A DNA stretch of 64,000 nucleotides from an uncultured Pelagibacteraceae bacterium (GTDB taxonomy: Bacteria > Pseudomonadota > Alphaproteobacteria > Pelagibacterales > Pelagibacteraceae), in NCBI GenBank assembly GCA_902633185.1, contig CACPFN010000005.1:1-64000 (forward strand). The letters are read 5' to 3'. The position numbers and the translations under genes are program-made. Within the stretch, counting starts at the first letter, position 1. Each line of letters opens with the position of its first letter. The notes beneath the pieces were generated by a model that saw nothing but the letters and a program-made list of their open reading frames with translations, searched no databases and had not been told where the DNA came from. This document shows, one piece after another, positions 30,090 to 31,373 of this stretch.

Positions 30090-31208
30090 ATGAATTTACA
30101 GTTAAACTCAATTGGATTAGATAAGAAACCGTCTGACACAAAAGTAATTGTAGCTATGTCTGGTGGTGTGGACTCATCTACAGTTGCAGGTTTGATGAAA
30201 ATGCAAGGATATAATGTTACCGGCATAACATTAAAACTATACAACGATAGTAAAGAAGTTGTTAAATCAAAAGTATGTTGCTCAGGCCAAGATGTTATAG
30301 ATGCAAAAAGAGTTGCTCATAAATTAGATATTGATCATAAAATTCTTTATTACCAAGATAAATTTAAGCAAGGTGTTATTGATAATTTTGTAGAAAGTTA
30401 CTTAAAAGGAGAAACTCCAATACCATGCGTACAGTGTAATCAAACTGTCAAATTTAAAGATTTGTATGAAGTTGCTAAAGATTTAAATGCTGATGCTTTG
30501 ATTACAGGTCATTATGTAAAAAATATAACAATAAATGAAAAAAATAATATGTATAGAGCAGTAGATGAAAATAGAGATCAAAGTTATTTTCTATTCAACA
30601 CTACAAGAGAGCAATTAAATTATTTACGATTTCCATTAGGTGGAATGTTAAAAAATGAAACTAGAGAAATTGCTAAAAAACTAAATTTAAATGTTGCAGA
30701 TAAGCCAGATAGTCAAGATATATGTTTTGTTCCTAACGGAGACTATTCATCAGTAATAAAAAAGTTTAAGCCAGATTCTTTAAAAAAAGGTAACATTAAG
30801 AATCTAAATGGTGAAGTAATAGGTGTTCATGACGGAATTATAAATTTTACTATTGGTCAAAGAAAAGGAATTAAAGTAGCTGACAAAGAGGCATTATATG
30901 TAATTAAAATTGATGCAGAAAATAATGAAATAATTGTTGGAGGAAGAGAGCATCTTGGAAAAAAGAAAATTAATTTAAAAAAAATTAATCTACTATCGGA
31001 TAAAAATGAATTAAATGAAAATATATTAGTCAAAGTTAGGTCTACTGGAAAATTATTAAGCGCCAATGTAAATTTTATAAACGAGAGTGATGCTGAGGTA
31101 AATTTAGATAATTCTGAAGATGGTATTTCACCTGGACAAGCATGTGTCTTTTATAAAAAAGACCAATATGGTCACAAAGTTCTTGGTGGTGGTTGGATTA
31201 AAGAATAA
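30090..31208 (+). CDS. mnmA: tRNA-specific 2-thiouridylase
   Basis: [63 protein letters not shown]. Confidence 0.97.
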
Positions 31209-31214
31209 TTAAAT

Positions 31215-31298
31215 TTACTTTTTCTTATTCTTTTTTCTTGCTCTTCTTTTTTTAGAGCCCATTTTTCTTCGGCCTCTATGCTTTTTAGGGTATCCCAT
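31215..31298 (-). CDS. Hyperbasic 27-aa micro-ORF (ribosomal/RNA-binding-like), not in ORF track
   Basis: Read directly on minus: MGYPKKHRGRRKMGSKKRRARKKNKKK-stop, preceded by aaaactAAGGAGAtt-ATG. Confidence 0.65.
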   Translation of the reverse strand: MGYPKKHRGRRKMGSKKRRARKKNKKK

Positions 31299-31373
31299 AA
31301 TCTCCTTAGTTTTACAATTTTATTGACTTATTTGAGGGATATAGCATTGTCAATATAACTAATCAATTTTTTT

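Follow-up and report, generated by a model that had tools for sequence, protein, structure and literature searches.

A conserved 27-residue hyperbasic protein of Pelagibacteraceae and its likeness to small ribosomal proteins

Short basic peptides occupy the same 16S rRNA pocket in different lineages, as bS22, eL41 or mS38 (PMC7005279, PMC10085706, PMC10618245). eL41 fills the same 16S pocket as bS22 (PMC7005279), and 55-65% of the residues of both proteins are basic (PMC10085706). The bS22 of Borrelia was unannotated until it was seen by cryo-EM and was the sole ribosomal protein missed by mass spectrometry in that study (PMC10618245). The intergenic regions of Pelagibacter have been screened for missed coding sequence (PMC2704228). 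The gene analysed here lies in a 64,000-nucleotide stretch of DNA from an uncultured Pelagibacteraceae bacterium, referred to as the window, and encodes a peptide of similar size and charge.

The gene and its signals

A preliminary description of the window had proposed an unannotated gene for a 27-residue hyperbasic protein, located between mnmA and metC and preceded by a strong Shine-Dalgarno sequence. The open reading frame was found with the coordinates, strand and length claimed; it ends in TAA, is 84 nt long, encodes MGYPKKHRGRRKMGSKKRRARKKNKKK and occurs once in its own assembly. AAGGAGA is located just 5' of the ATG. The placement was also confirmed. The mnmA gene (30090-31208, plus strand) is convergent with the peptide gene, with 6 nt between the two stop codons, while a gene for a metC-like PLP enzyme with a match to PF01053 (31374-32552, plus strand) is divergent from it. 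The features of the locus are as follows.

31215-31298, minus strand: hyperbasic microprotein gene, with a conserved frame, fixed length and synonymous-only variation among the loci that encode an identical protein
31301-31307, minus strand: Shine-Dalgarno sequence AAGGAGA, its GGAG ending 3 nt before the ATG, a short spacing
31338-31343, minus strand: putative extended -10 element, TGc-TATATC, within a conserved block, which implies a leader of about 33 nt
31361-31366, minus strand: putative -35 element, TTGATT, with a 17 nt spacer; TTGATA or TTGATT is kept at about that spacing in the genus
31161-31173, minus strand: hairpin resembling a terminator, with a T-run after it, some 40 nt past the stop codon, a consensus match only

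An SD-like AAGGA or AGGAG was present at most Pelagibacteraceae loci and absent from the members of the peptide family in three other families, f24, f31 and f142. The strong Shine-Dalgarno of the preliminary description was confirmed for the window; it characterises most copies within the window's family and is not conserved outside it.

The block GACAATGCTATATCC (31336-31350), in the interval that separates the peptide gene from the divergent metC, was conserved across several SAR11 genera and appears to contain the extended -10 of the peptide gene, an element that a consensus promoter scan did not pick up. The same block could instead act as a promoter shared by both divergent genes or as a site for a regulator, and it could also serve metC. 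The consensus scan found one terminator-like hairpin where 0.2 were expected, and its position after the stop codon suggests that the RNA of the peptide gene is monocistronic. The f142 copies had conserved TTGACT and TATA(C/A) motifs, the distance from the -10 to the ATG being about 11 nt; in the f31 copies a -10-like element preceded the ATG by 6-8 nt (spacings read from L041, L060-L088 and L035-L037). A -10-like element this close to the start codon, together with the lack of an SD, predicts that the f31 and f142 mRNAs are leaderless or nearly so.

As a separate observation, all four SAR11-family 16S 3' ends inspected (L146, L149, L153, L154) read GGATTACCTCCTT instead of GGATCACCTCCTT, a C1533U change (our numbering) next to the anti-SD. 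The C at 1533 was kept in the HIMB59-type and other alphaproteobacterial 16S genes that were looked at.

Conservation, distribution and descent

By tblastn the gene was present in 254 of 297 Pelagibacteraceae (f1) genomes, in 115 of the 126 that were of good quality and in 12 of the 14 genera of the family, full length and without stops among the matches listed. An identical peptide was encoded by 29 distinct DNA sequences with 5, 0 and 24 variable sites at codon positions 1, 2 and 3, although these loci were fetched as best matches, so that the invariance within the set partly reflects search selection. Comparison of the window with another copy (L032) gave a dN of 0.09 and a dS of 2.9, and cross-group comparisons likewise had low dN with high or saturated dS. 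In most pairs within the family the peptide showed higher conservation than MnmA, encoded next to it (85% against 57% identity, 93% against 65%), but the difference was not clear in every pair (85% against 79% for L112 and the window). The tBLASTn search and the dN/dS analysis that had been suggested as checks thus yielded a conserved reading frame and an excess of synonymous change, and the proposal of an overlooked protein-coding gene under strong constraint was borne out.

All eight of the genomes from the window's own genus that had no peptide gene also had no adjacent metC, indicating that the region is missing from those assemblies. In one further genome the gene was truncated by the contig end, and in another miss (G072, L130) metC was adjoined by a different gene. 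The misses examined look like assembly gaps; apart from G072/L130, they were without the neighbouring region or at contig edges, and gene loss within SAR11 is not supported. The gene is real and coding, is under strong purifying selection and is nearly universal in Pelagibacteraceae.

In a class-wide sample the peptide was found in only four families, 1) the window's own, f1, 2) f24, a separate small order, with 6 of 6 genomes, and 3) f31 and f142, with 55 of 61 genomes between them. We infer that f1 corresponds to SAR11, and f31 and f142 to the HIMB59/AEGEAN-169 order. The other alphaproteobacterial families in the sample yielded no member, and the phages and plasmids searched gave no match. 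The sub-threshold matches in other alphaproteobacteria that were opened (L043, L045, L057, L109) lay inside long, mostly GC-rich, unrelated frames and were rejected. Every full-length copy examined was exactly 27 residues long. The core shared across the families is MGYPKKHRGRRKxGSxxRR, in which MGYPKKHRGRRK-x-GS-xx-RR is essentially fixed, with G, A or S at residue 2, while the tail varies among K, R, N, Q, A and S. The invariant non-basic positions are Y3, P4, H7, G9, G14 and S15.

Short open reading frames are common at the locus, where 65 of at least 20 residues overlap the surrounding 7 kb, so that a 27-codon frame is unremarkable when taken alone. However, the notion of a chance frame in AT-rich DNA can be practically discounted, given a frame conserved across orders at the frequencies above and variation that is synonymous. 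What beats chance is the conservation of the frame, not the frame itself.

In the SAR11 relatives the peptide gene is located beside metC, and in many of them the peptide stop codon is followed, within tens of nucleotides, by the start of a co-directional gene for a Frag1/DRAM-like membrane protein. The Frag1/DRAM assignment derives from a weak Pfam match in one protein, below the curated cut-off. The membrane protein has 233-235 residues and is uncharacterised (L110 4826-5533; L133 5106-5807; L139 4635-5336). The close downstream gene would suit a leader peptide, or a dual-function RNA, that regulates the membrane-protein gene. This is extremely unlikely, since selection acts on the amino acids, the peptide gene has no unusual RNA fold (z -1.05) and no match in Rfam, and the membrane-protein gene is absent next to the peptide gene in the window. 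Moreover, the neighbours are different elsewhere: the peptide gene comes after a gene for an RNA polymerase sigma factor in f24, is flanked by a LysR-like gene and an SbmA/BacA-like transporter gene in f142, and is near MFS-like and TPR genes in f31. The leader model was rejected on this changing gene context, which also indicates a stand-alone gene that is kept for itself.

The relationship between SAR11 and HIMB59 is disputed and sequence trees are prone to compositional artefacts (PMC10308909, PMC6447387). The 16S genes of seven full-length carriers and a partial f24 sequence were aligned with those of 11 non-carrier alphaproteobacteria (L144-L157, L165-L170). The carriers had A19 and U916, and the 11 non-carriers C19 and G916, at the central pseudoknot pair (numbering by our own count). 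The carriers also had U in place of the G of the non-carriers at about E. coli position 776, and a two-column deletion near reference position 786. When the alignment was recoded as purines and pyrimidines the carriers were grouped (SH-aLRT 89, UFBoot 79), and in the unrecoded tree a reduced genome (G313) fell among them with low support. These data are consistent with a single origin of the carriers, but the direction of the shared substitutions is towards A/T, which leaves room for convergence.

A proposed role in the ribosome

Fifteen or 16 of the 27 residues (56-59%) are Lys or Arg, and there is no Asp or Glu. Searches of PDB, Pfam and NCBIfam with the peptide gave no match, and a search for a ribosome structure of SAR11 likewise came up empty. 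The N-terminal string, when searched for in the literature, returned nothing, the smORF catalogues (PMC11364881) and the supplement of PMC2704228 lying outside that search.

Several observations point to a structural protein that binds rRNA, 1) the composition, 2) the extreme constraint and 3) the near-universality, as would suit a housekeeping protein in genomes that are streamlined. Non-basic residues are also among the fixed ones, which argues for one precise surface and not for generic charge; short basic peptides with such a surface usually bind folded rRNA. An overlooked ribosomal or RNA component, as suggested in the preliminary description, is plausible. The peptide is most likely a small ribosomal protein, which would bind rRNA and reside in the ribosome. 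As a working model, the near-invariant N-terminal half, M-G-Y-P-K-K-H-R-G-R-R-K, would make sequence-specific contacts to folded rRNA, and backbone charge would be neutralised by a C-terminal half that is rich in Lys and Arg and takes the form of a short helix or a tail. The peptide would then occupy an rRNA pocket, as bS22, eL41 and mS38 do in the small subunit at h2/h27/h44/h45. A 27-residue protein of a new family with its own gene, probably structural and ribosomal, is the explanation that we favour with moderate confidence.

The composition alone would suit a binder of any polyanion, and no ribosomal protein operon was found around the peptide gene at any locus examined. A nucleic acid-binding peptide that acts outside the ribosome, in the nucleoid, as an RNA chaperone or ribosome assembly factor or by binding polyphosphate, is accordingly an alternative that deserves some weight. 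It is nevertheless unlikely, because the near-invariance of the six non-basic positions suggests a single precise binding surface.

A length of 84 nt is below the 90 nt lower limit of Prodigal, a standard gene finder, and the longest fragment in a tryptic digest of the peptide is MGYPK, with none exceeding five residues. Together these would explain why the gene was overlooked, and they define a blind spot for genes this short whose products have no usable tryptic peptide. SAR11 are among the most numerous cells on Earth, and a nearly universal, nearly unchanging gene of theirs has been outside every family model searched. If the peptide is ribosomal, it is a new ribosomal protein, retained by genomes that are the most streamlined of any free-living organisms and that shed what they can. 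For the question of how SAR11 and HIMB59 are related, the peptide also provides an independent character, as it is present in both and, f24 apart, in no other alphaproteobacterial family sampled. That it is a hitherto unrecognised ribosomal protein, confined to SAR11, HIMB59/AEGEAN-169 and the third, small order and derived from one common ancestor, is a serious but tentative possibility. In that case the most abundant bacteria of the ocean would have a ribosomal component missing from current accounts, and a rare genomic character would link lineages of disputed relationship.

Comparison with known small ribosomal proteins

The preliminary description had likened the peptide to bTHX and bL36, and membership of neither family was supported. 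Thermus Thx also has 27 residues, starts with MG and ends with KKK, and none of 290 genomes of the class had a canonical bTHX over the cut-off, as might be expected if the peptide were a divergent form of this protein, which is bound at the top of the 30S head. However, the Thx profile (PF17070), the comparison that had been proposed, did not match the peptide although it gave 64.6 bits with the Thermus control, the defining motif GKGD+KT..GK...GSYG..RP was absent and the alignment was no better than shuffles (P about 0.5), so that a divergent bTHX is very unlikely. bL36 is likewise a tiny basic ribosomal protein, but it is longer and has a Cys/His zinc site; no member of the peptide family contains Cys, hence there is no zinc site and membership is not supported. 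None of the alignments with bTHX, bL32, bL34, bL35, bL36, bS21, eL41, bS22 or mS38 was significant against shuffles, several of the reference sequences having been entered by hand.

The favoured explanation includes the special case of a divergent orthologue of bS22/mS38 (AURKAIP1/COX24), a group likewise named in the preliminary description and found in Bacteroidota, Borrelia, Actinomycetota and mitochondria. The size and charge are the same, and a MAFFT alignment with the Bacteroidota and Borrelia bS22 (28-30 residues) gave up to 52% identity and paired the K-[VMI]-[AS]-T of bS22 with the K-[MIRQ]-G-S of the peptide family. This identity was no better than that obtained with shuffled columns (z 0.4, P 0.28); the corresponding P was 0.32 for the actinobacterial bS22 and 0.90 for mS38 (z -1.2), and hhalign returned a probability of 1.9%. 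PF08213 and NF047430 did not match the peptide, and PF08213 was over its cut-off in none of 143 genomes of the class. Both models also miss the Bacteroidota-type bS22, so their silence on the peptide proves little. On balance the orthology is doubtful; if true, the core of mitochondrial mS38 could have an alphaproteobacterial source.

The eL41 profile (PF05162) gave 42 bits with the yeast control and no match to the peptide, and the alignment was at or below the shuffle mean, so that membership in eL41 is not supported, although eL41 is also extremely basic and of comparable length (25-37 residues). On sequence grounds placement in bTHX, bL36, bS22/mS38 or eL41 is unsupported, and the peptide is filed as a new family. 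It has no sequence similarity to bS22/mS38 beyond composition, but the bacterial forms of the latter are 28-33 residues long, 55-65% Lys/Arg and restricted to certain lineages, and the SAR11 peptide resembles them in each respect. Having no tryptic fragment longer than MGYPK, it would escape mass spectrometry as the Borrelia bS22 did. The best analogy for how the peptide may work is therefore provided by bS22, eL41 and mS38, whose pocket in the small subunit would be its putative counterpart.
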